Below, piece by piece: positions 9,460 through 19,954 of a stretch of 56,155 nt of DNA. Every line of letters begins with the position of its first letter. The first letter of the stretch is position 1. Source of the DNA: Caulobacter sp. HMWF025 (GTDB taxonomy: Bacteria > Pseudomonadota > Alphaproteobacteria > Caulobacterales > Caulobacteraceae); assembly GCF_003060965.1 (NCBI RefSeq), contig NZ_QAII01000029.1:3917-60071 (forward strand). Direction: 5' to 3'. The translations under genes were made by a program, and so were the position numbers. The notes beneath the pieces are model-generated. The model ran no database searches. It was not told where the DNA came from and saw only the letters and a program-made list of their open reading frames with translations.

Positions 9460-10227
9460 ATGCAAAATCTTTTCTCGCTTGAAGGCCGGGTCGCGGTCGT
9501 CACCGGCGGCTCACGCGGTATCGGAGCCATGATCGCCAAGGGTTTCCTGACCTACGGGGCCAAGCGTGTCTACATCACGGCCCGCAAGGCCTCAGCCTGT
9601 GACGCTACCGCCGAAGCGCTGAGCGAGTTTGGTGAGTGCATCTCGCTGCCAGGCGATATCTCGACCATGGAAGGCATCGAAGGGCTCGCCAAGCGCATCA
9701 TCGAGCGCGAGGACAAGCTCGACATCCTGGTCAACAACGCCGGGGCCGCCTGGGGGGCGGCCTTTGACGAGTTCCCGGAAAGCGGCTGGGACAAGACCGT
9801 GGACCTGAACATGAAGACGCCGTTCTTCCTGACCCAGGCGTTGATTGCGCCGCTGCGGGCCGCTGCCCAGGACCGGGTGGGCAAGGTCATCAACATCTGC
9901 TCGATCGATGGCCAGTCCGTCACCAAGGACGAAACCTATCCCTATGGGGCCTCCAAGGCTGGCCTGCTGCACATGACCAAGCGCATGGCCCTGCGACTGG
10001 CCTCGGACAACATCGCCGTATCGGCCATCGCGCCGGGTGCGTTCGCTTCGGACATGAACAAGGTGGCCCGCGACCATGCCGATGCCGTGGCGAAGGCCAT
10101 CCCGGCGGGGCGTATCGGATCCGAGGAAGACATGGCCGGTGCCGCCATCTATCTGGCGTCGAGGGCTGGTGACTACGTCATGGGCGGTGCCGTCACGGTT
10201 GACGGCGGCGTGAGTTTCGCACGCTGA
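9460..10227 (+). CDS. Short-chain dehydrogenase, RhlG-like 3-ketoacyl reductase
   Basis: 255 residues of a classical SDR: TGGSRGIGA binds NADP, LVNNAGAAWGAA stabilises the sheet, and YGASKAG holds the catalytic Tyr and Lys. The opening FSLEGRVAVVTGGSRGIG and the FGECISLPGDIS segment match RhlG and related 3-ketoacyl reductases more than FabG. GGAGAC precedes the ATG. It is the last gene of the plus-strand run and ends at a strong bidirectional terminator. The likely role is reduction of a 3-keto or hydroxy acyl substrate in the same unknown catabolic route. It faces the sphingolipid operon but is not part of it. Confidence 0.88.
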   Translation: MQNLFSLEGRVAVVTGGSRGIGAMIAKGFLTYGAKRVYITARKASACDATAEALSEFGECISLPGDISTMEGIEGLAKRIIEREDKLDILVNNAGAAWGAAFDEFPESGWDKTVDLNMKTPFFLTQALIAPLRAAAQDRVGKVINICSIDGQSVTKDETYPYGASKAGLLHMTKRMALRLASDNIAVSAIAPGAFASDMNKVARDHADAVAKAIPAGRIGSEEDMAGAAIYLASRAGDYVMGGAVTVDGGVSFAR

Positions 10228-10237
10228 TCTGACGATC

Positions 10238-10271
10238 GACCGGGCGAGGGTTATGCAACCGTCGCCCGGTC
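10238..10271. terminator. Bidirectional terminator between SDR and serine palmitoyltransferase
   Basis: GACCGGGCGA (10238-10247) and TCGCCCGGTC (10262-10271) form a perfect 10-bp stem. An inner GGTT/AACC pairing extends it. It lies in the 50-base gap between two convergent genes, so it can stop transcription from both sides. Confidence 0.75.
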
Positions 10272-10277
10272 AAGCTC

Positions 10278-11495
10278 TCAGGCCGATACCCGCTTGCGCT
10301 GAGTGTCGATGATGCCGAGCGCCGTGCCGACTTCGGCGAAGACAGCCAGAACCTTGTCGATCTGTTCTTCGGTGTGCGCCGCGCTGACGCTCGTGCGCAG
10401 CAGGGGGCGGCTGTCCGGGGTCGCCGGCGGCAGGGCCAGGTTCAGATAGACACCGTTCTGCAGCAGCATGTTCCACATGCCGATCGCACTGGCCTGATCC
10501 GGCATGGTGATCGCCACAATCGGGCTGGCGGTCGGACCGGTGTGGAAGCCGAGTTCGGTCAGGCCTTCATAGAGGCGACGGGCATTGCTCATCAGCCGGT
10601 GGCGCAGGTGCGGCATCTCTTCGAGCCGCCGCAGGGCGGTCAGGGTCGAGCTGACCACCGCCGGCGGCAGCGAGGCGGTGAACATGTACGGGCGGCAGAT
10701 GACGCGCATGACTTCGAAGTCGTCGAGGTTGCTGACGCAGAACCCACCGATCGCGCCCAGGCTCTTGGAGAAGGTGCCGACGATGAAATCGACATCGTCC
10801 TCAACGCCTTCCTGTTCAGCAAGACCCCGGCCGTGCTCACCCAGGACGCCCATGGAGTGGGCCTCGTCGACCAGCAGATAGCCACCGAGCTCGCGCTTTA
10901 CCGCCGCGATTTCCTTCAGCGGTGCCGTGTCGCCGATCATGGAATAGATGCCCTCGACCACGATGAGGCGCTCACCGGGGACGTCCTTCATGCGCCGCAG
11001 GCGCTTGTAGAGATCTTCGGGATCATTGTGGCGGAAACGGATGACCTCGGCATGGCCCAGGCGCGAGCCGTCATAGATGCTCGCATGGCTGTCGGCATCG
11101 AGAATCAGGTGATCGCCGCGTCCGACCAGGGTCGACAGGACGCCAAGATTGGCCTGATAGCCGGTCGTAAAGACCATGGCATGCTTGCGATTGTAGAACC
11201 GGCCGAGCGCCGTCTCGAGTTCCACATGGGCTTCGAAACTGCCATTGGCGATCCGTGAGCCGGTGGTGCCCGTCCCGCGTTCCTGAACGGCCTTGACCGA
11301 GGCGGCTATGCTTTCAGGGTCAAAGGTGAGGCCGAGATAGTTGTTGGTGCCCAACAGGATCGTCGGACGGCCCTCAATCACGCCTTCGGTGGGTGAAATC
11401 ACGGAGTCGAACCGGATATTGAAGGGATCTGCCCCGACCTGACGGATCGCCTGATAGGCGTCGCGATAGGCGAGGTGCTTGTCGAACAGCCCCAT
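10278..11495 (-). CDS. spt: Serine palmitoyltransferase (alpha-oxoamine synthase)
   Basis: 405 residues. It is a PLP enzyme of the alpha-oxoamine synthase family that condenses serine with an acyl thioester to give 3-ketosphinganine, the first step of sphingolipid synthesis. Visible motifs are DADSHASI (H138 stacks on PLP), LLVDEAHSMGVLG (D210, H213) and TFSKSLGAIGG (K244, Schiff base). The N terminus MGLFDKHLAYRDAYQA resembles Caulobacter Spt rather than BioF or Kbl. It is the last gene of a minus-strand operon, 2 bases after the acyl carrier protein gene and downstream of an acyl-AMP ligase and a CerR-like reductase; this context argues for SPT over 8-amino-7-oxononanoate synthase. It ends at a strong terminator. 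Confidence 0.92.
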   Translation of the reverse strand: MGLFDKHLAYRDAYQAIRQVGADPFNIRFDSVISPTEGVIEGRPTILLGTNNYLGLTFDPESIAASVKAVQERGTGTTGSRIANGSFEAHVELETALGRFYNRKHAMVFTTGYQANLGVLSTLVGRGDHLILDADSHASIYDGSRLGHAEVIRFRHNDPEDLYKRLRRMKDVPGERLIVVEGIYSMIGDTAPLKEIAAVKRELGGYLLVDEAHSMGVLGEHGRGLAEQEGVEDDVDFIVGTFSKSLGAIGGFCVSNLDDFEVMRVICRPYMFTASLPPAVVSSTLTALRRLEEMPHLRHRLMSNARRLYEGLTELGFHTGPTASPIVAITMPDQASAIGMWNMLLQNGVYLNLALPPATPDSRPLLRTSVSAAHTEEQIDKVLAVFAEVGTALGIIDTQRKRVSA

Positions 11496-11497
11496 GT

Positions 11498-11749
11498 TTA
11501 GCCCTTGTTCCGAAGATCTTTAATCAGGTTGGACAGGTCGCCGGCGGTCTCGACAGAAGCCAGACGATCAAGCGGGATCGAGAGGTCGAACACGTCCTCA
11601 AGCTCCATGATGATGTTCATCAGGGCCAGGGAGTCGACCTGCAGGTCACGACCGATGTGGGTTTCGTCGGCGACCTCGACGGGGCGCCCGAGAACCGAGG
11701 TTGCCGCCTTGCCGATTTCCCGAAGAGTGAGATCCGTAACCGCTTTCAT
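11498..11749 (-). CDS. Dedicated acyl carrier protein of the sphingolipid operon
   Basis: 83 residues. The phosphopantetheine site is DLQVDSLALMNIIMELEDVF, with the modified serine in DSL (about S39). It is divergent from housekeeping AcpP, which normally has GADSLD. It lies directly before serine palmitoyltransferase and in the same operon as a fatty acyl-AMP ligase, so it most likely receives the activated fatty acid and hands it to SPT as acyl-ACP. A 94-base gap upstream contains a possible promoter, so acp and spt may also be made on their own. Confidence 0.9.
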   Translation of the reverse strand: MKAVTDLTLREIGKAATSVLGRPVEVADETHIGRDLQVDSLALMNIIMELEDVFDLSIPLDRLASVETAGDLSNLIKDLRNKG

Positions 11750-11795
11750 GCCGACTTGCCGAAACCCCCGTTTGCGGACCTGACTGACTCGAACT

Positions 11796-11825
11796 GTAAC
11801 AGGGCTATTGTCGGATTCCTGACAA
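11796..11825 (-). promoter_or_regulatory. Possible internal promoter for acp-spt
   Basis: Reading the minus strand, TTGTCA (11825-11820) is followed after 18 bases by TGTTAC (11801-11796), giving a start point about 40 bases before the acyl carrier protein ATG. The gap is AT-rich compared with its surroundings. The -10 is a weak match. Confidence 0.35.
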
Positions 11826-11843
11826 AATTGGCGGTTAACGTCA

Positions 11844-12785
11844 TCAAACCGTAACTAAAAACTCCCGCTTTCGGTACCAGCTCACGCTATGGGAGAATCC
11901 TGCGTCGATCTGATATCGCGTCGCGAGAGCGCCGGGGACGCATTCGGCCTCCGAGAGGCTCCAGTTCCGGTGCAGGATCTCTCGCGCCTTGCCGGGGGTG
12001 AAAATAGAGACTGTGCCTGTGACGCGGGACCAGGTCTGTGACAGCCGGGCGATTGCCGTGATCAATCCGTCTGGAACCCGGATCAGACGGGGCTGTCTGC
12101 CGACCGCCCTCCCGGCCGACTGCATCACTTCGTCCCAACCATAGCCTTCGGACCTGGCGTCCGACAGCGCGAAGGTCCCGGGCCGCCAGTGGCGGGCCAG
12201 ATCGGCAATCTGCGCGGCAGCATCCTCGACATGGATCAGGGCCATCCGCGCTCGGGCATCGAGGACCGGTAGCCACGGCGAGGTCTGCGCCAGACGAAAG
12301 AGATCGAGGGTCTCCATGTCGCCCGGCCCATAGATGGCCGGTGGCCTGACGACCGTCAGATGGCTGCCGACAATGGCCCTGACGGCGTCTTCGCCGCCGC
12401 GCTTGCTGGCGGCATAGTCAGAAAGCGCCGGGGACCGTGCCGCGAGGCTGGAAACGAGCATCACCCTGGCACCGGTCTTTTGGGCCGCGCTGGCCACCGC
12501 GCGAGCGCCAAGGACATTCACCCGATCGAACTCGTCGCGGGATTTCGCCTTGATCAGGCCAGCGGCATGAATGACCACATCGGCACCGGTGCAGAGGCGG
12601 TCCAGGCCTGCGGCAGAAGTGAGATCGCCGACGACCAGCTCTGGCTCAAGGCCTGCCCATTCCGGATCAACAATGTCTCGCCTGGCCAGGATGCGAACCG
12701 TCCAGCCGCCGTCAGCCATGGTCCTGACCAGGTGCCGGCCGAGGAACCCGGTTGCGCCGGTGATCGCGACCACACGCGAGGTCAT
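11844..12785 (-). CDS. cerR: CerR-like NAD(P)-dependent epimerase/reductase (3-ketosphinganine/ceramide reduction)
   Basis: 313 residues of an extended SDR. ITGATGFLGRHLVRTMA (about residues 9-25) is the GxxGxxG cofactor loop, and ALSDYAASKRGGE holds the Tyr-x3-Lys pair. In Caulobacter the NAD-dependent epimerase-like gene of the sphingolipid locus is CerR, which reduces the 3-keto group of the sphingoid product; the placement between the acyl-AMP ligase and acp-spt supports the same role here. Gene order rather than sequence alone decides this: by sequence it could also be a sugar-nucleotide epimerase. It starts 3 bases after the upstream stop. Confidence 0.8.
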   Translation of the reverse strand: MTSRVVAITGATGFLGRHLVRTMADGGWTVRILARRDIVDPEWAGLEPELVVGDLTSAAGLDRLCTGADVVIHAAGLIKAKSRDEFDRVNVLGARAVASAAQKTGARVMLVSSLAARSPALSDYAASKRGGEDAVRAIVGSHLTVVRPPAIYGPGDMETLDLFRLAQTSPWLPVLDARARMALIHVEDAAAQIADLARHWRPGTFALSDARSEGYGWDEVMQSAGRAVGRQPRLIRVPDGLITAIARLSQTWSRVTGTVSIFTPGKAREILHRNWSLSEAECVPGALATRYQIDAGFSHSVSWYRKREFLVTV

Positions 12786-12788
12786 GGC

Positions 12789-14498
12789 CTAGCCGCGATT
12801 AGCATAGGCACCGGCCAGGAAGGCCGCCCGGGCCTTAGAGCGGCTTAGTTTGCCTGACGATGTTTGCGGCAGGGCGTGAGCCCCGACCAGGTGGACCTGG
12901 ACTTCAACACTATGGCGTACCCGCAGGACCGTTGCGACGGCCTCGGCCAGGGCCTTGCGGCTCTCGGCATCGCCGCCACGAGCCTGCACCAGGACGATGA
13001 TGACGTCTTCGGTTTCGCCAGGCGTCGAAAAGGCCGCGACATCACCACTGCGCAGACCGTCGGTCTCGGCTTCGGCGGTCCACTCCAGATCCTGCGGCCA
13101 GATATTTCGGCCGTTGAGAATGATCAGGTCCTTGGCGCGCCCTGTGATCACGATCTCGCCCTCGACCAGGAAGCCAAGGTCGCCGGTATCAAGCCAGCCG
13201 CCTTCGGCCAGGACGCGGGCGGTCTCTTCAGGCTGCTCGAAATAGCCCTGCATCAGGCTGGGGCCGCGGGCAAAAATCCGTCCGACCTGCCGCTCCGCCA
13301 GGGGCAGGCCGTTTTCATTCCGGACTTCAAGCTCGTGGTGGGGAAGCACCGGACCGTTGCGGGCAAAGTCGCGCGCCCGGTCGCCGTCATCACTTTCAAC
13401 GGCCAGGCCGTTCTCCAGTTGCTCGATATCCAGGCGCTCGACCTTAAGCCCACCACCAAGCGGAGCCATCGACAGGGCCAGGGTGGCCTCGGCCATCCCG
13501 TAGCTGGCGACAAAGGCCGTTTCCGAGAATCCAACCGCCTTGAATCGCTCGGCAAATGCTTTCAGCGGTCCGGTGCGGATCATGTCTCCGCCGAGGCCAG
13601 CGCTGCGCCACCGCGAGAGATCCAGATGGTCGATAGCTGCAGCTTCCGCGCGGCGGGCGCAGAGCTCATAGCCAAAGGTCGGGCTGTAGCTGATGGTGCC
13701 ACCGTTCCGGGTCAAAAGGTCCAGCCACATCAGAGGGCGGCGAACAAAGGCCCCGGTCGGCAGGAGGTCAACCGACATCTGGCTGGTCATCGGGCTCAGG
13801 AGGAAGCCGATCAGCCCCATGTCATGATAGAGCGGCAGCCATGAGATGGCGCGATCTTCGGGGCGGACCTGCAGGCCGTCGCGCGTGATCGCCACGGCAT
13901 TGGCCATCAGCGCCCTGTGTGTCACCACCACGCCGGTTGGAAAGCGCGTGCTTCCCGACGAGAACTGAAGATAGCAGGTCTGGTCTGGCTCAATAGCGGG
14001 CAGATCAATGCCGGAAGTCGGGGGCAGGTCTGCGAGGACCCCGGCGAATTTCAGGGGCGTCTGGGCAGCGATCTCGGGCAGCCAAGCGGCCATGGATGCC
14101 GGGCCGATCAGGATTGAGGCCCGGGCCGAGGCCAGCATCCGGGTGATCTGGTCGACATAGGCCGCGCGCCCTCCCAGCGGAGCGGGCAAGGGCAAGGGGG
14201 CCGGGGCAAGACCGGCATACTGGCACGCAAAAAAGGCGCGAACGAAGTCGGCGTCCGTTTCGGCAATCAGGCCAACGGTGCCACCCGGCACGGCCCCCGT
14301 CGCCAGCATCCGCCCGGCAAGGTCCATCGCCTGGGCTCGAAGGTCTGCATAGGGCAGGGCCTCGACCAGTTCACCGCGCAAAGAATAGAGGTTCACGCCG
14401 GTTTCGCCCGTGGCCGCAAAGTCGAGCGCGGCCGTCAGGGTCGGAAAATCGGCGAAGCGCACCGTTCGCCCGGCGCCTGTCGGTGTCATCATCATCAT
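12789..14498 (-). CDS. Fatty acyl-AMP ligase of the sphingolipid operon
   Basis: 569 residues of the adenylate-forming family. LQFSSGSTRFPTGVVVTH is the ATP phosphate loop, SWLPLYHDMGLIG is typical of fatty acyl-AMP ligases, GWLDTGDLGFLVEG binds ribose, and the C-terminal LPQTSSGKLSR holds the adenylation lysine. It probably activates a fatty acid with ATP and loads it on the acyl carrier protein two genes downstream. The start is one of four consecutive ATG codons; the first overlaps the flippase stop as ATGA. The frame stays open far upstream through the flippase gene, but that part is antisense-like noise with no family similarity. Confidence 0.88.
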   Translation of the reverse strand: MMMMTPTGAGRTVRFADFPTLTAALDFAATGETGVNLYSLRGELVEALPYADLRAQAMDLAGRMLATGAVPGGTVGLIAETDADFVRAFFACQYAGLAPAPLPLPAPLGGRAAYVDQITRMLASARASILIGPASMAAWLPEIAAQTPLKFAGVLADLPPTSGIDLPAIEPDQTCYLQFSSGSTRFPTGVVVTHRALMANAVAITRDGLQVRPEDRAISWLPLYHDMGLIGFLLSPMTSQMSVDLLPTGAFVRRPLMWLDLLTRNGGTISYSPTFGYELCARRAEAAAIDHLDLSRWRSAGLGGDMIRTGPLKAFAERFKAVGFSETAFVASYGMAEATLALSMAPLGGGLKVERLDIEQLENGLAVESDDGDRARDFARNGPVLPHHELEVRNENGLPLAERQVGRIFARGPSLMQGYFEQPEETARVLAEGGWLDTGDLGFLVEGEIVITGRAKDLIILNGRNIWPQDLEWTAEAETDGLRSGDVAAFSTPGETEDVIIVLVQARGGDAESRKALAEAVATVLRVRHSVEVQVHLVGAHALPQTSSGKLSRSKARAAFLAGAYANRG

Positions 14499-15850
14499 AC
14501 GCCTTTGGCGTCGTTTGCGTCTTTCGCGCAAGAGGGTTCGTTGTCTCTGAGGACGGAGGGGCGCCCAAGTTGGGCCCTTAGGGTGAGGAACATGCCGGTC
14601 GCCATGGCAAGCGCTGCTCCGATCAGGGCAAGGCCTGCACCGCTCAGGCCCATAGTCCGGATCAGCGGCACGAGGGCGAGCAGAAACAGGCTGGAAACGA
14701 CGATGCGTACCCTGAGGGCTGCCCCGGCAGCACGCATTGACACCAGCATCGGCTCCAGGGGCAGGGCCAGGATTCCGATCGCAGCAGCGGCAACCTGCCA
14801 GGTCATGATGCCGGCAGCGCCCACATAGGCCTTGCCCATGACCAGCGCCAGCAGGGGCTTGCCAGCCAGGGCGCTGAGCAGGAGCAGAGCGCCGGCGACT
14901 GCGCCGCCGAGCAGGGAAATCTGGATGGCCAGCTTCCGCATCGCGCCTTCCCCTTCTGTGACCCGAAGCTTGGCGAGTTCCGGATAGAGCGCCGGGATCA
15001 GCAGGCGAGCGGGCTTGGCCATGCCGTCGGCCACCTGACGTCCGATCCGCCAGAGTGCAGCCTGGGCCGGTCCAAGCAACCCTCCGACCATCAGGGTGAT
15101 CAGATGGGTAAAGGCAACGTCCAGGGTGCTGCTGAAGTTCGTGGCCCAGGCAAACTTCCAGACGCCGGGCAATCCCTCCCCAACGGGACCGAACAGGGAA
15201 AAGCCCCGAAGCAGATCGCGCCGGCCCATCTCGCGCCAGGCGATCGTGCCGACGTAGCAGAACGAGGCAATCGGTCCGGCCGCCCAGGCCAGCAGATAGC
15301 CCCAGAGTGGGGCATTGAGCAGGAAGGCGAGGCCGGTACCGGCGAGACGGACCGTCGAGCTGACGGCCTGCTCTCCGGCCAGATATCGAAACTTGTCGAA
15401 CAGTCGCAAAAGCCCGACGGAGGTGGCAGAGGTCATGACCGCAATGGTCAGGGAATAAAGCGCCGCGAGTGGGGCCACCTCGCTCGACCATCCAAGGATC
15501 GATCCAAAGAGCAGCGCGCCACCAATCCCCAGAATGACGCCGACGAGTCCGCTGCCCAGGTCGAGAACGAGCGACAGTCGAACCACCTGCTGGAACTCGG
15601 TGCGGTCGTGCTTGAGCAGGGGCTCGGCACCATACTGAAGGACCGTTTGCCAGGACTGGAACTTGACGACATCGCCCAGGAACTGGGCGAAGGCCGTGAT
15701 GAGGGTCAGCACGCCCATCTGGGCAAGGCCCAGGCCCCGAGCTGAAAGGGCGAGGTAGCCAAGGCTGACAAGGGCATTGACGGTGCGACCACCCAACAGG
15801 GTTCCGGCATTGCTCAGGACGTGGGCGAAGACGGATCTCTGCTTGCTCAT
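14495..15850 (-). CDS. MOP-superfamily polysaccharide/lipid flippase
   Basis: 451 residues with about twelve hydrophobic segments. The N terminus (SNAGTLLGGRTVNALVSLGY) and the overall pattern match the PST/Wzx branch of MOP exporters, which flip lipid-linked sugars across the inner membrane. No O-antigen polymerase or sugar-nucleotide genes are near. Its start overlaps the upstream transferase stop and its own stop overlaps the downstream ligase start, so it is translationally coupled to both. In this operon the likely cargo is a sphingolipid intermediate, which is inference; a polysaccharide precursor is the alternative. Confidence 0.8.
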   Translation of the reverse strand: MSKQRSVFAHVLSNAGTLLGGRTVNALVSLGYLALSARGLGLAQMGVLTLITAFAQFLGDVVKFQSWQTVLQYGAEPLLKHDRTEFQQVVRLSLVLDLGSGLVGVILGIGGALLFGSILGWSSEVAPLAALYSLTIAVMTSATSVGLLRLFDKFRYLAGEQAVSSTVRLAGTGLAFLLNAPLWGYLLAWAAGPIASFCYVGTIAWREMGRRDLLRGFSLFGPVGEGLPGVWKFAWATNFSSTLDVAFTHLITLMVGGLLGPAQAALWRIGRQVADGMAKPARLLIPALYPELAKLRVTEGEGAMRKLAIQISLLGGAVAGALLLLSALAGKPLLALVMGKAYVGAAGIMTWQVAAAAIGILALPLEPMLVSMRAAGAALRVRIVVSSLFLLALVPLIRTMGLSGAGLALIGAALAMATGMFLTLRAQLGRPSVLRDNEPSCAKDANDAKGV

Positions 15851-16998
15851 GCCGCTGCTATGCCGAGCTTCGCGGCTATGGCGGCGGCCGCCCGATGTGA
15901 GGACGGCGTCGCCGAAAGATCAAAGCTTTCGGCAAACCCGGTTTTCTGGGCCGCTAGATAGCTACCATGCCCCTGGCGTGCGGCCTCGATGGCGTCGACC
16001 AGATGATCGGCCGAGTCCAGAACGGGCCCGTATCCCCAGTGGTGGAAGCTCTCGTCACCTTGCCAGGCCGCATTTGAGGCATTGAGGAACAGGCACGGCT
16101 TGGGCGTGCGAAGGAATTCATAGACCTGACTGCTGACGTCGCCGAGGTAGATGTCCGCCGCGCGGGTATAGGTCATGTCGATTGCGGCCGGACCGCCAAG
16201 ATCAATATGGATCCGTGGATTGTTCCGATAGGGCGCGAGACTTTGCAGCATCTCCTGGCTAGCCCCGTCGAACAGCCGGATATGCGGGGCGAAGATCAGG
16301 TTGAAGCGGTCGTCGTCGGCAAAGGCCTTGAGAACGTCCACGCCAAAGCGTGGCCAGGAGCCCAGGGTTGCGTGGAAATGCGGGTTGTAGACAACCACCG
16401 GCCGCGCCTCGGGAAACACGGGGAGGGGCGATCCCGGCAGGGCGTCGATCAGGTCAAACTTCGGATAGCCGACCATCGCGCAGTTTTCTGGGCGGACCCA
16501 TCCGCCCTCGACCATGCGGTCTCTCTGCTTGGGGCCTGCTGCCATGACCAGGTCAAACTGCCTCAGCCGCGGTTCGAAAACACCCCCCCGATCGCCTGCG
16601 CCGTGCTGTGTGTAGACCAGCAGGGGCTTCTGGACTCCTAGCTTCCTGAGCAGGGCGCTGGTGCGTTCGGGTGTGACGATCGCGTCAAACCGTCCCAGCG
16701 CCCAGGCGTTCGCGGCGAGCATCAGGGCCTTTGGCGGCGTTGATGCCTCCTTGAACCGCAGGTTTCTCAGCCACTGCGGGCCAAGCAGGCTCATGGCCAG
16801 ATCGGGGCCGTTCGAAGCCCGCAGTAACGCGCGGGCATAGTCGAGATGGTCCTGCGTCGTCGCCTGGACTTCCACAGACAACTCCGGCCAGCCCTTAGCG
16901 AGCGCTACGGCGATCGGCAGGCTGTGCAGGATCTGGTGGGTCTGGGCGATATAGAGAAAGCAGACCTTTGGCTTTCTGGAAGGGCTGTCCGGGGTCAT
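15847..16998 (-). CDS. GT-B transferase related to CDP-glycerol glycerophosphotransferases
   Basis: 383 residues, soluble. LVYTQHGAGDRGG in the middle and GDVSSQVYEFLRT near the C terminus correspond to the HG and D-x-SS blocks of TagB/TarF-type CDP-glycerol transferases, and VVYNPHFHATLGSW to their donor-site loop. These enzymes move glycerol-phosphate or sugars to lipid-linked acceptors. Placed between LptC-like and flippase genes in a sphingolipid operon, it may add a glycerophosphate or sugar head group. That is inference: the acceptor cannot be read from sequence. It overlaps the flippase start by 4 bases and follows the LptC-like stop by 18. Confidence 0.7.
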   Translation of the reverse strand: MTPDSPSRKPKVCFLYIAQTHQILHSLPIAVALAKGWPELSVEVQATTQDHLDYARALLRASNGPDLAMSLLGPQWLRNLRFKEASTPPKALMLAANAWALGRFDAIVTPERTSALLRKLGVQKPLLVYTQHGAGDRGGVFEPRLRQFDLVMAAGPKQRDRMVEGGWVRPENCAMVGYPKFDLIDALPGSPLPVFPEARPVVVYNPHFHATLGSWPRFGVDVLKAFADDDRFNLIFAPHIRLFDGASQEMLQSLAPYRNNPRIHIDLGGPAAIDMTYTRAADIYLGDVSSQVYEFLRTPKPCLFLNASNAAWQGDESFHHWGYGPVLDSADHLVDAIEAARQGHGSYLAAQKTGFAESFDLSATPSSHRAAAAIAAKLGIAAA

Positions 16999-17016
16999 CT
17001 GCGCGTCGGTGCCCGT

Positions 17017-17631
17017 TCACTGGCCCGGGTTGAGGCGAGTCTTCACGCGCCCCTTGAAGACCACCCGGTCGCCCTTGTCGGAAACGGCATAGCTGTCGGC
17101 CTGAACCTTGTTGCCCGACGCACTGGCACCGTTGATGCCCTCCTGACCGACGACGTCGCCTGTTCGCGTGTCGATCAGGGCTTGCTGAGTGGAAAAATCA
17201 TAGCCATTGCCACTGTTGACCCGGACGTCGCCGGTCAGCTGAAGCAGGCCTTTGGCCTCGTCATAGACACCCTGTCGCGAGACAACCTGGGTCGGCTCCG
17301 GCGAGCCATAGCCGCGGGTCAAATGGGGGGCGTCGAGGGCAACACGGTTGGGGTCCACAGTATCGCGGACAGCACCTGTTGCCGTGATCAGGAACGTCCG
17401 GCCGTCCTTCATGAGGCCGGTAAAGCGCGGATTGTCCATCCGCAAGCCATTGCGATCTAGAGGCGTTTCAACCGCTTCCGTATTGAAGGCACCAAGGGCC
17501 GTCTGGGCGATGATGGCGACAAGGACAGACGCTGCTAGAGCGGGGAGGGCCAGACGAAGGATACGGACCGCCTTGCGTCGGCGAGGCCGTGTCTTGCGCC
17601 GGACGGCGACAGGTAGAGCGGTCGTGGTCAT
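17017..17631 (-). CDS. lptC: LptC-family lipid transport protein
   Basis: 204 residues from the ATG chosen. A basic N terminus (RRKTRPRRRKAVRIL) precedes one membrane anchor, LALPALAASVLVAIIAQ, followed by a beta-jellyroll with MDNPRFTGLMKDGRTF and LLQLTGDVRV, typical of alphaproteobacterial LptC. LptC links the LptB2FG extractor to the LptA bridge. Here no lptA or lptB follows; instead it heads the sphingolipid operon. It may be a second LptC used for sphingolipid transport, or the only LptC, separated from lptA. A TTG 20 codons upstream extends the frame but has no ribosome site. Confidence 0.82.
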   Translation of the reverse strand: MTTTALPVAVRRKTRPRRRKAVRILRLALPALAASVLVAIIAQTALGAFNTEAVETPLDRNGLRMDNPRFTGLMKDGRTFLITATGAVRDTVDPNRVALDAPHLTRGYGSPEPTQVVSRQGVYDEAKGLLQLTGDVRVNSGNGYDFSTQQALIDTRTGDVVGQEGINGASASGNKVQADSYAVSDKGDRVVFKGRVKTRLNPGQ

Positions 17632-17730
17632 GGCGGCCAGGGGCTGACGACGTCGAAGGATTGGCTTAGTGCCGACTGCGCGATCTCCCAAGTGATAATC
17701 TTCGGGTCGGAAGCGGCAGGCGGCAGATAC

Positions 17731-17768
17731 AAAAACGGCCGGCCAAGCGGTGAGGCTTGCCGGCCGTT
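17731..17768 (-). terminator. Rho-independent terminator of the HU gene
   Basis: On the minus strand an AACGGCCGGC-type stem of about 14 bp with one bulge encloses a 6-base loop and is followed by TTTTT (bases 17735-17731). It lies 19 bases past the HU stop codon. Confidence 0.8.
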
Positions 17769-17786
17769 CGTGTTCAAGCCTGAGGC

Positions 17787-18065
17787 TTAGCCGTTGACGG
17801 CGTCCTTCAGTTGCTTGGCAGGCGTGAAAGCGACCTTCTTGGAGGCTGCGATCTCGATGGCAGCGCCGGTGGCCGGGTTGCGGCCGGTGCGGGCCGGCTT
17901 GGCCTGGACCTTGAACTTGCCGAAGCCCGGGATCGAGACTTCTTCGCCCTTCACGGCAGCATCCGTCAGCGACTTGAAGACGCCGTCGATGATCGACTTG
18001 GCCTGAGCCTTGGTCAGCTTGTCGTCGGCAGCAACGGCGGCGTCGACCAGATCCGAAACGTTCAT
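17787..18065 (-). CDS. DNA-binding protein HU
   Basis: 92 residues, standard HU length. Signature elements are SIPGFGKFKV and the DNA-binding arm ARTGRNPATGAAIEIAA, followed by KKVAFTPAKQLKDAVN. HU is an abundant nucleoid protein that bends DNA as a dimer; the single alphaproteobacterial form is likely a homodimer. Its own terminator and a 221-base divergent upstream region show that it is monocistronic. GATGAG just before the ATG serves as the ribosome site. A second HU/IHF-fold gene (ihfA) lies at 47498. Confidence 0.95.
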   Translation of the reverse strand: MNVSDLVDAAVAADDKLTKAQAKSIIDGVFKSLTDAAVKGEEVSIPGFGKFKVQAKPARTGRNPATGAAIEIAASKKVAFTPAKQLKDAVNG

Positions 18066-18111
18066 GATTTTAGCTCATCTCAAGTGGAATCAATGAGCGC
18101 CAACCCTGACG

Positions 18112-18125
18112 AACCCAAATGGGTT
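18112..18125. promoter_or_regulatory. Palindrome in the HU leader/promoter region
   Basis: AACCCA-AA-TGGGTT, a 6-bp inverted repeat with a 2-base centre, lies 47-60 bases before the HU start codon. It could be an operator or an mRNA hairpin. No candidate regulator is identified. Confidence 0.3.
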
Positions 18126-18286
18126 TGTCACCTCATCCCAGCAAATAGGGCGTTTGGCGTGATTTTGGGGCAAGGATCACCTCCCCGGGGCCGATGAAAC
18201 CTGACACCATGCGCAACGGTTGCGCTCCGGGGCGGGTGACGGACAAGACTTGCCGTGGTAGCGGTAACGAAAATCAGGGGGAAAAC

Positions 18287-19954
18287 ATGGCGAAAGCCGG
18301 GAATCTGGGGGCGAAGGGCGGTGAAGTCGTCGGTCGCAAGGACGGTCTGGTCATTGGGGCCGCTTCGGTCGGCACCGTTTTCGAGTGGTACGACTTCTAT
18401 CTGTACGGCTCTTTGGCGACCTATATCACGCACCACTTCTTCTCCGGCGTGAACGAGACAACCGGCTATATCTTCGCCCTCCTGGCCTTTGCGGCCGGCT
18501 TTGCGGTTCGTCCGTTCGGGGCCCTGGTTTTTGGTCGCCTGGGCGATCTTTGGGGGCGCAAGAACACCTTCCTGATCACCATGCTGCTGATGGGACTGTC
18601 GACCTTCGTGGTCGGCCTGCTGCCCAGCTATGACAAGATCGGGATCATCGCGCCCATAGCCCTGGTCATCATGCGCCTGATCCAGGGCCTTGCGCTCGGC
18701 GGCGAGTACGGTGGGGCCGCGACCTATGTGGCCGAGCATGCCCCTGCCAACCGACGCGGACTCTATACGAGCTTCATTCAGGTCACGGCGACCTTCGGTC
18801 TTTTCCTGAGTCTCGTGGTCATCCTGTTCACCCGCAATCTGGTGGGTGACGACGCGTTCAAGGCCTATGGATGGCGCATCCCGTTCCTGATCTCAGTGCT
18901 TCTGCTGGGCGTCTCGCTTTGGATCCGACTGCAGCTGTCGGAGAGCCCTTCTTTCCAGAAGATGGTCGACGAGGGCAAAGGCAGTAAACAACCGCTGACG
19001 GATTCCTTCGCCAAATGGGGCAACCTCAGGATCGTCATTCTTGCCCTGGTCGGGCTGACGGCTGGCCAGGCGGTGGTCTGGTATACCGGTCAGTTCTATG
19101 CGCTGTTTTTCCTGGAGAAAATGCTCAAGGTCGACGGCGGCCTGACCAATGCGCTTGTCGCGATCTCGCTGCTGATCGGTACGCCGTTCTTCGTCTTCTT
19201 CGGTTGGCTCTCGGATCGGATCGGACGCAAATGGATCATCATGGCCGGCTGCGTGCTGGCCTGTCTGACCTATTTCCCGCTCTTCAAAACCCTGACGGTA
19301 GCGGCCAATCCGCAACTGGCAGCCGCTGTTGCGTCGTCGCCCGTCACGGTGGTCGCGGACCCGGCTGACTGCTCCTTCCAGTTCGACCCCATCGGCAAGA
19401 CGGTGTTCAACACCTCCTGCGATCTGGCCAAATCCTATCTTGCCAAGGCCGGCGTGACCTATGTGAACCAGGCCGCGCCTGCGGGCACCGTGGCCGAGGT
19501 CAGGATCGGTGCGGTAACGCTTCCGTCGTTTGCGGGCGAGACTCTCGACAAGGCTGCGTTCAAGGACCGGAAGAAGGCCTGGGAGGCGGAACTGGGGACG
19601 GCCCTGAAGTCGGCGGGCTATCCGGCCAAGGCCGACAGTGCGCTGGTCAACAAGCCGCTTGTCGTCGGCATCCTGACCCTGCTGGTCATCTATGTGACCA
19701 TGGTCTACGGCCCGATTGCAGCCATGCTGGTGGAGATGTTCCCGACCAACATCCGCTACACCTCGATGAGCCTGCCGTATCACATCGGCAATGGCTGGTT
19801 CGGGGGCTTCCTGCCGACCACGGCCTTCGCCATGGTCGCTGCAACGGGCAACATCTACTACGGACTTTGGTATCCGATCGTCGTCGCCGGAATCACGGCC
19901 GTGATCGGCATCCTGTTCCTGAAAGAAACCAAGGACGTCGACATCGAAGCCTGA
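18287..19954 (+). CDS. MHS-family MFS transporter with an extra periplasmic domain
   Basis: 555 residues. The N-terminal half matches metabolite:H+ symporters of the ShiA/ProP type: GTVFEWYDFYLYGSLA (29-44), motif A GRLGDLWGRKNTF (83-95) and LALGGEYGGAA (135-145). A second motif A, GWLSDRIGRKW, is at 306-316. Between the next helix and GILTLLVIYV (about 337-455) stands a hydrophilic insert of roughly 118 residues with two cysteines (in ADCSF and TSCDL), so it is probably periplasmic. AGGGGGAAAAC before the ATG decides the start; an ATG 31 codons earlier has no ribosome site. Organic acid or osmolyte uptake is likely; the substrate is unknown. Confidence 0.88.
   Translation: MAKAGNLGAKGGEVVGRKDGLVIGAASVGTVFEWYDFYLYGSLATYITHHFFSGVNETTGYIFALLAFAAGFAVRPFGALVFGRLGDLWGRKNTFLITMLLMGLSTFVVGLLPSYDKIGIIAPIALVIMRLIQGLALGGEYGGAATYVAEHAPANRRGLYTSFIQVTATFGLFLSLVVILFTRNLVGDDAFKAYGWRIPFLISVLLLGVSLWIRLQLSESPSFQKMVDEGKGSKQPLTDSFAKWGNLRIVILALVGLTAGQAVVWYTGQFYALFFLEKMLKVDGGLTNALVAISLLIGTPFFVFFGWLSDRIGRKWIIMAGCVLACLTYFPLFKTLTVAANPQLAAAVASSPVTVVADPADCSFQFDPIGKTVFNTSCDLAKSYLAKAGVTYVNQAAPAGTVAEVRIGAVTLPSFAGETLDKAAFKDRKKAWEAELGTALKSAGYPAKADSALVNKPLVVGILTLLVIYVTMVYGPIAAMLVEMFPTNIRYTSMSLPYHIGNGWFGGFLPTTAFAMVAATGNIYYGLWYPIVVAGITAVIGILFLKETKDVDIEA

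Follow-up and report, generated by a model that had tools for sequence, protein, structure and literature searches.

The locus and its genes

We consider here a stretch of 56,155 nucleotides from Caulobacter sp. HMWF025 (the window), corresponding to positions 3917-60071 of contig C119 in a genome of 3.96 Mb and 176 contigs, and in particular seven minus-strand open reading frames (ORFs) at 10278-17631 that are assigned to sphingolipid synthesis and export. The first in transcription order is an LptC-like gene (LptC2, 17017-17631; PF06835 at 45.3 bits against a cut-off of 21), the orthologue of CC_1168 of Caulobacter crescentus. The second (15847-16998) is the orthologue of CC_1167 and encodes a GT-B-fold protein, an assignment drawn from an AlphaFold2 model and structure matches, and the third (14495-15850) is the orthologue of CC_1166 and encodes a flippase of the MOP superfamily (PF01943 at 38.7 bits, cut-off 28.2). 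Then come a fatty acyl-AMP ligase/acyl-ACP synthetase (AasR, CC_1165; 12789-14507), which scores 865 bits with NF006624 (cut-off 600) and is 71% identical to its C. vibrioides counterpart; a CerR-like reductase of epimerase fold (CC_1164; 11844-12785; PF01370 over the Pfam cut-off, 56%); a specialised acyl carrier protein (ACP; AcpR, CC_1163; 11498-11749; PF00550 over the Pfam cut-off, 80%); and a predicted serine palmitoyltransferase (SPT, gene spt, CC_1162; 10278-11495), with 680 bits for NF047599 (cut-off 500) and 83% identity. Against the alpha-type family NF047603 the SPT reaches 520 bits, under the cut-off of 670, and the LptC-like protein likewise stays under the cut-off of TIGR04409 (29.3 bits, cut-off 38).

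Neighbouring genes overlap by up to 13 nt or are separated by up to 94 nt. There are 18 nt between the LptC-like and GT-B genes, a 4-nt overlap between the GT-B and flippase genes, an overlap of 4 to 13 nt between flippase and ligase, depending on which ATG is chosen in a run of four from 14507, then 3 nt between ligase and CerR, 94 nt between CerR and ACP, and 2 nt between ACP and SPT. The ATG taken for the LptC-like gene places its start at 17631, and an upstream TTG would place it at 17691. An ORF at 12789-15491 in the mechanical list is too long, with the ligase domain beginning at its residue 378. We also surveyed other loci that carry the GT-B gene, namely the best 80 of 590 candidates confirmed after a profile search of genome contigs (named loci only), a choice that makes this sample lean to close relatives. 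Of these 80 loci, 25 show the identical seven-gene order; they are labelled Caulobacter, Phenylobacterium, or Caulobacterales or other bacterial metagenome-assembled genomes, and the arrangement is therefore not due to chance. The ORFs, the domains and this recurrence all bear out the original prediction of seven minus-strand genes with overlaps or short gaps. A promoter and terminator scan of 9900-18300 did no better than shuffled sequences (one sigma-70-like promoter against a shuffle mean of 1.3, and three terminator-like structures against 6.2), and we therefore base the operon assignment on gene spacing and synteny.

Upstream, on the same strand, lies an ORF (17787-18065) that we take, by eye, to encode an HU-type DNA-binding protein. 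Between it and the LptC-like gene, a palindrome followed by T's can be seen by eye at about 17736-17771, and was not flagged by the automatic terminator scan. PADLOC gave no match for the three leading genes. A sequence search of the PDB returned a single unrelated match for the flippase (E 0.83) and none at E<=1 for the LptC-like protein. As a side observation, the CerR-like protein has a Rossmann motif at its N-terminus and, by eye, no obvious signal peptide; the CerR of Caulobacter is reported to be periplasmic (PMC11087976).

A pathway split between two contigs

The layout of this operon and the idea that it serves export are not new, since both are already in print for Caulobacter. The C. 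crescentus genes CC_1168 to CC_1152 are reported to comprise LptC2, CC_1167, the flippase CC_1166, AasR, CerR, AcpR, Spt and then CC_1161 to CC_1152, including LptF2, LptG2 and CerS (PMC11324152). The same study, published in PLoS Pathogens in 2024, proposed CC_1168, CC_1166, CC_1156 and CC_1155 as a sphingolipid transport system, transport itself not being investigated there, and called CC_1167 "probably unrelated". It also gives for CC_1167 a cofitness of 0.57 with spt and of 0.54 with CC_1159. Elsewhere, CCNA_01210-01226 has been named a "sphingolipid biosynthesis and export cluster" (PMC12633290). Others have reported that five ceramide genes are required for dihydroceramide and that CpgB is a ceramide kinase. 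CpgD is described as a CTP:phosphoglycerate cytidylyltransferase that makes CDP-glycerate, a product that CpgA is proposed to use (PMC12275187, PMC13228409).

The seven window genes have the order and strand of CC_1168-CC_1162. A tblastn search of C. vibrioides DSM 9893 (L079) finds matches to all seven window proteins in order, with CC_1161-CC_1152 directly after, which makes seventeen contiguous genes. The window's genome differs in that this run is interrupted after spt and before CC_1161: the orthologues of CC_1152-CC_1161 lie on contig C21, from 10622 to about 20.9 kb, as CpgD, CC_1153, CerS, LptG2, LptF2, CC_1157, CC_1158, CpgA, CpgB and CC_1161, with 57-78% identity to C. vibrioides (CerS 69%, LptF2 69%, LptG2 65%) and in the same order. 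A contig end is not the cause of the split, because spt lies well inside C119 and CC_1161 well inside C21. The ceramide N-acyltransferase is thus absent from the operon, as first proposed. The notion that a single operon covers the whole way from fatty acid to the outer membrane does not survive, since C21 carries CerS, LptF2 and LptG2 as well as the phosphoglycerate head-group genes.

With two LptF/LptG pairs (PF03739) and two LptC-like proteins, the other LptC copy being encoded on contig C75 with 42% identity, the genome has a second set of components resembling the LptB2FGC exporter of lipopolysaccharide (LPS). This set is unlike the LPS exporter in that it adjoins sphingolipid genes and that its predicted cargo is sphingolipid.

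Co-occurrence with spt

To place these genes in a broader context, two sets of genomes were searched. The order set contains 120 genomes (36 with spt and 84 without) and the class set 190 (25 with and 165 without); order (Caulobacterales) and family (Caulobacteraceae) were inferred from named relatives. We called spt with NF047603 at E<=1e-115 in the order set and 1e-110 in the class set, the model's own cut-off being reached by no genome of the former and by 2 of the 190 of the latter. The other thresholds were also ours (flippase E<=1e-8, GT-B 1e-5 or 1e-10, CpgD 1e-20, CpgA 1e-15).

The flippase is present in 26 of the 36 order-set genomes with spt and in 1 of the 84 without (Fisher p 4e-17), and the GT-B gene, at E<=1e-5, in 11 and none, respectively (p 5e-7). 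The class set gives 7/25 against 1/165 for the flippase, the single match without spt being at E 3e-9, and 3/25 against 1/165 for the GT-B gene. In 21 of the 26 flippase-bearing genomes with spt, the two genes are within 12 kb of each other on the same contig (the exceptions are G227, G232, G246, G276 and G291). LptC is informative in another way: matches occur in 111 of the 120 order-set genomes, and a second match only in the six spt-bearing genomes of the window's genus. In a tree, 20 LptC2 rows fall on one side of a single branch with support of 72/8 and long branches, and we do not retain a firm single origin of LptC2 given this weak support. Two other members of the genus (G204, G248) have no spt, flippase, GT-B, CpgA or CpgD match at the thresholds used, and the pathway is apparently absent from part of the genus.

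As MOP flippases and GT-B enzymes are commonly found in polysaccharide loci, the three leading genes could serve LPS or another surface polysaccharide and have no more in common with spt than a promoter. Some GT-B copies do have such a setting: a second copy in genome G229 (L023) lies next to, or overlaps, an ORF resembling, by eye, a sugar glycosyltransferase, and a similar ORF is next to the copies in L100 and L105. The near absence of the flippase and the absence of the GT-B gene from order-set genomes without spt, and the proximity of the flippase gene to spt, argue the other way, and on co-occurrence we rejected this reading, which we regard as highly improbable. The prediction of a decoration, flipping and transport lane in the first three genes thus holds in its direction, which was already in print. 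It is supported by the co-occurrence of the flippase and GT-B genes with spt, a check named along with the prediction as one that could refute it. It needs amending for the GT-B protein, which looks more like a polyol-phosphate transferase of the Tag/Tar type than a sugar transferase, as detailed below.

The neighbourhoods of the GT-B gene

The closest named relatives of the GT-B protein, among the matches listed, are labelled Caulobacter and reach 81% identity, records nearest to the window's genome being possibly excluded. In the 80 GT-B loci, at least two other genes of the sphingolipid system are found in 53, SPT lies within 8 kb in 47, and the flippase is adjacent (midpoints less than 2.5 kb apart) in 34. 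Three lineages, each with a layout of its own, tie the GT-B gene to sphingolipid genes. The 25 Caulobacter/Phenylobacterium-type loci read LptC-GT-flippase-ligase-CerR-ACP-SPT, with a few deviations from this type (no LptC at that place in L085 and L086, the flippase 8 kb upstream in L120, and L078 too short). Eighteen loci from Acetobacter, Asaia, Swaminathania, Komagataeibacter and Commensalibacter read GT-ligase-ACP-SPT, with CC_1161, CpgB, CC_1158 and LptF2 coming next in 17 of them. Four Belnapia/Siccirubricoccus loci read LptF2-LptG2-CerS-CC_1153-flippase-GT. Strain AAP38 (L111) shows flippase-GT-ligase-CerR-ACP-SPT, and a locus from a metagenome-assembled genome (L099) holds CpgD through CC_1161 plus spt inside 11 kb. 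In two genomes, G227 (L164) and G291 (L163), the GT-B gene is grouped with CC_1153, a HAD phosphatase and the flippase away from spt.

Two side observations concern these loci. All 18 Acetobacter-group loci (L114, L117, L118, L121-L127, L131-L137, L141) have a contig end 0.2-1.6 kb upstream of the GT-B gene, where a repeat is likely; Rfam, run on 6 of the 18, found no RNA gene that accounts for these ends. A second, remoter gene of the GT-B family (L209, 12686-14837, in G319, the genome of a Sphingobium locus), 39% identical to its best query, adjoins CpgA and has CpgD, CC_1153 and flippase matches within 10 kb, a further link of the family to phosphosphingolipid genes.

In the view of the 2024 study, the GT-B gene probably has nothing to do with sphingolipids and would merely ride in the operon. 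This would fit the 27 of the 80 loci with fewer than two other sphingolipid genes; by title, these include 16 sphingomonads, whose sphingolipid genes are reported to be scattered (PMC11324152), and 7 Caulobacteraceae, and some of the 27 have short flanks (L092, L103, L110, L115, L130). It would also fit two genomes of the window's family (G209 and G273, genus g170) that have spt and the flippase without the GT-B gene. In the literature within reach of our search, we found no GT-B mutant and no title that gives CC_1167 a function or tests CC_1166 or CC_1168; most subscription papers were outside this search and earlier work may exist. A mere passenger would not be expected to follow sphingolipid genes through three layouts, to be grouped with the flippase, CC_1153 and the HAD phosphatase away from spt, to be absent from all 84 order-set genomes without spt, and to have the published cofitness with spt cited above. 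We thus hold it quite unlikely that the gene is unrelated.

CpgA-CpgD and a proposed second head-group cassette

The known head-group cassette, CpgA-CpgD, combines a CDP-alcohol phosphotransferase and a CTP:phosphoglycerate cytidylyltransferase. Like the GT-B protein in the role that we propose for it, it would act at a head-group step on ceramide phosphates, and it fills the same gene slot as the GT-B gene in three loci of other genomes (L174, L175, L176). The two differ in that CpgA has a PF01066 domain and the GT-B protein a GT-B fold. A swap is seen within one genus (g179), with CerS-CC_1153-flippase-HAD-GT in L165 and L166 against CerS-CC_1153-flippase-CpgA-HAD-CpgD in L175.

We surveyed the cassettes in 65 genomes, comprising 53 drawn from 307 (all 36 order-set genomes with spt, 10 of the 24 other class-set genomes with spt, and 7 without) and 12 named genomes with the GT-B gene. 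CpgD and CpgA are found in the same 28 of the 65, and the GT-B gene (profile A2) in 25. The tables that follow, for the cassettes and for the flippase, use only the 36 order-set genomes with spt. Outside the window's family, these number 28, of which 5 have the GT-B gene only, 8 CpgA-CpgD only, none both and 15 neither. The five Acetobacter-group genomes examined all have the GT-B gene and neither CpgA nor CpgD. Two stronger statements were rejected. Strict exclusion of the two cassettes does not hold, several lineages carrying both (p 0.28 among the 28), nor does the idea that the GT-B protein always uses the CDP-glycerate made by CpgD, since 5 genomes of the order and the 5 of the Acetobacter group have the GT-B gene without CpgD (E<=1e-20).

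A HAD-IB phosphatase gene is present in L163, L164, L165, L166, L174, L175, L176 and L219, the copy in L165 reaching 115 bits with TIGR01490. These eight clusters have no match to CC_1158, a metallophosphoesterase, and the scanned clusters with CC_1158 have no HAD match, so that the phosphatase may stand in for CC_1158.

What the flippase tracks

When the 36 genomes with spt are divided by the flippase, CpgA-CpgD or the GT-B gene is present in 21 of the 26 that have it and in none of the 10 that do not (Fisher p 1e-5). Outside the window's family the figures are 13 of 18 and 0 of 10 (p 3e-4). We also examined 30 of the 36 spt loci for CerR and CerS, including those of all 10 genomes without the flippase, where the locus around spt, no longer than 4.2 kb, contains a CerR match in 6 and a CerS match in 9. 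Ceramide synthesis and the proposed periplasmic step of CerR thus do not seem to need the flippase.

This bears on another role that the flippase could have. With CerR found in the periplasm and its flippase unidentified in the source (PMC11087976), the protein might bring oxidised ceramide to CerR rather than move decorated lipids. The flippase is, however, absent (E<=1e-8) from more than a quarter of the genomes with spt, most of which have a CerR match beside spt, and its presence tracks CpgA-CpgD or the GT-B gene instead; we hold a role in supplying CerR to be very unlikely. The distribution suggests that the flippase goes with head-group genes and not with ceramide synthesis as such.

The fold and family of the GT-B protein

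The GT-B protein of the window matches nothing in Pfam at E<=0.001 or in NCBIfam at E<=0.01, and phmmer with this single protein returned one unrelated match (E 0.82). An AlphaFold2 model built from 58 sequences (pLDDT 93.0, pTM 0.91) could be compared by VIA-align, in which TagF comes at the top (Z 24.3, rmsd 3.5, 326 residues), with TarL at Z 23.4 and a CMP-bound capsule polymerase and a UDP-GlcNAc 2-epimerase both at Z 23.9. The modelled fold alone cannot choose between kinship to Tag/Tar enzymes and to epimerases. The family gives more direction. PF04464, the CDP-glycerol glycerophosphotransferase superfamily of the CDP-polyol phosphotransferases TagF, TarF and TarL, is matched at E<=1 by 45 of the 58 members. 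When 10 members were scanned one by one, 7 matched at E<=0.1 and 4 exceeded the cut-off of 22.1 (27.7, 33.8, 25.7 and 23.8 bits). TarL is the top PDB sequence for GT-B profile A3 (E 0.0036), and for the L018 protein NCBIfam ranks TarL and TarF highest, though far under their cut-offs. The likeness covers the GT-B fold, the top VIA-align matches, with which an epimerase is tied, and a motif aligned with TarL (GDVSSQVYEF / SDYSSLIYEY). The differences are that the window's protein is under the Pfam cut-off, that its family is found in Gram-negative sphingolipid clusters and that its activity is predicted. We do not claim membership of PF04464, because the window's protein reaches 12.6 bits, behind its 15.8-bit match to a glycosyltransferase family (PF13579, cut-off 29.7). 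Judged by these sequence matches, the evidence leans to a protein that works by a Tag/Tar-like mechanism.

Sphingomonads are known for glycosphingolipids, the GT-B fold is common to many UDP-sugar enzymes and PF13579, weak as the match is, is the best Pfam match of the window's protein. It could thus be a true glycosyltransferase making a glycosphingolipid, which the flippase would then turn over. We consider this unlikely, as the family-wide matches point to PF04464, TarL and TarF, and the gene is found among phosphosphingolipid genes (CpgB, CC_1153, HAD) and fills the slot of CpgA-CpgD.

A proposed model and the evidence against it

We consider it probable that the Caulobacter-type spt operon is one of two halves of a phosphosphingolipid system, that the GT-B protein transfers a head group, either instead of the known enzymes or in addition to them, and that the flippase moves the sphingolipid once it is decorated. 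What we observed here is the gene content, the synteny, the co-occurrence and the class of fold; the GT-B activity, the flippase substrate and the cargo of LptC2, LptF2 and LptG2 are predictions of the model, which runs as follows. The acyl-AMP ligase would charge the ACP, SPT would condense the acyl-ACP with serine, CerR would reduce the ketone, and CerS, encoded on C21, would add the second acyl chain. CpgB and CC_1161 would then act on the head group, followed by CpgA/CpgD, and the Tag/Tar-like GT-B protein would attach to the ceramide a polyol- or glycerate-phosphate group, either as a further group or as an alternative one. It would then fall to the MOP flippase to turn the decorated, charged lipid to the periplasmic leaflet, and LptC2, with LptF2 and LptG2 from C21, would hand it to the Lpt bridge.

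Several observations weigh against this model. Beside the sparse GT-B loci described above, genome G091 has the GT-B gene without SPT. The exclusion between the cassettes is weak by count (p 0.28 with n=28; p 0.036 in the 18 genomes with the flippase), and both occur together in the six spt-bearing genomes of the window's genus, AAP38, G058, G175, Belnapia, Siccirubricoccus and four sphingomonads. As for the flippase, 5 of the 26 genomes that have it carry neither cassette (G211, G232, G260, G265, G295), G201 has CpgB and CC_1161 matches beside spt without it, and in the class set G037 has CpgA-CpgD without the flippase and G026 and G158 the flippase without either cassette. Beta- and gamma-proteobacteria are also reported to have CPG2 genes without CC_1166-1168 (PMC11324152), and our Fisher tests ignore shared ancestry throughout. 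Concerning the protein itself, TagF and UDP-GlcNAc 2-epimerases fit the model equally well, Foldseek ranks epimerases first and TagF seventh, 3 of the 10 relatives scanned singly have no PF04464 match, the window's protein is under the cut-off of that family, and NCBIfam gives no match for 3 of 4 GT-B proteins.

Implications for bacterial sphingolipids

Beyond the two-halves model, we tentatively put forward, as a possibility that we hold to be somewhat short of an even chance, that the CC_1167 family is a teichoic-acid-type CDP-polyol phosphotransferase recruited to sphingolipids. It would take over from CpgA-CpgD in acetic acid bacteria and certain relatives of Caulobacter, and in Caulobacter itself it would supply a further head group, with the adjacent flippase specific for such charged heads and the donor coming from a CC_1153-type nucleotidyltransferase where CpgD is missing. 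On this reading, the synthesis of phosphosphingolipids in bacteria would include an enzyme that had gone unrecognised.

How sphingolipids cross to the outer membrane is stated to be unknown (PMC11087976, PMC11324152), and anionic sphingolipids are reported to help Caulobacter survive without LPS (PMC12275187). What is added here to the published export idea, which it sharpens, is the case for the GT-B protein as a head-group enzyme and for a flippase that serves decorated sphingolipids, so that a gene set aside as "probably unrelated" becomes a candidate for a head-group step. For acetic acid bacteria and some other relatives, the prediction is a head group other than ceramide diphosphoglycerate.

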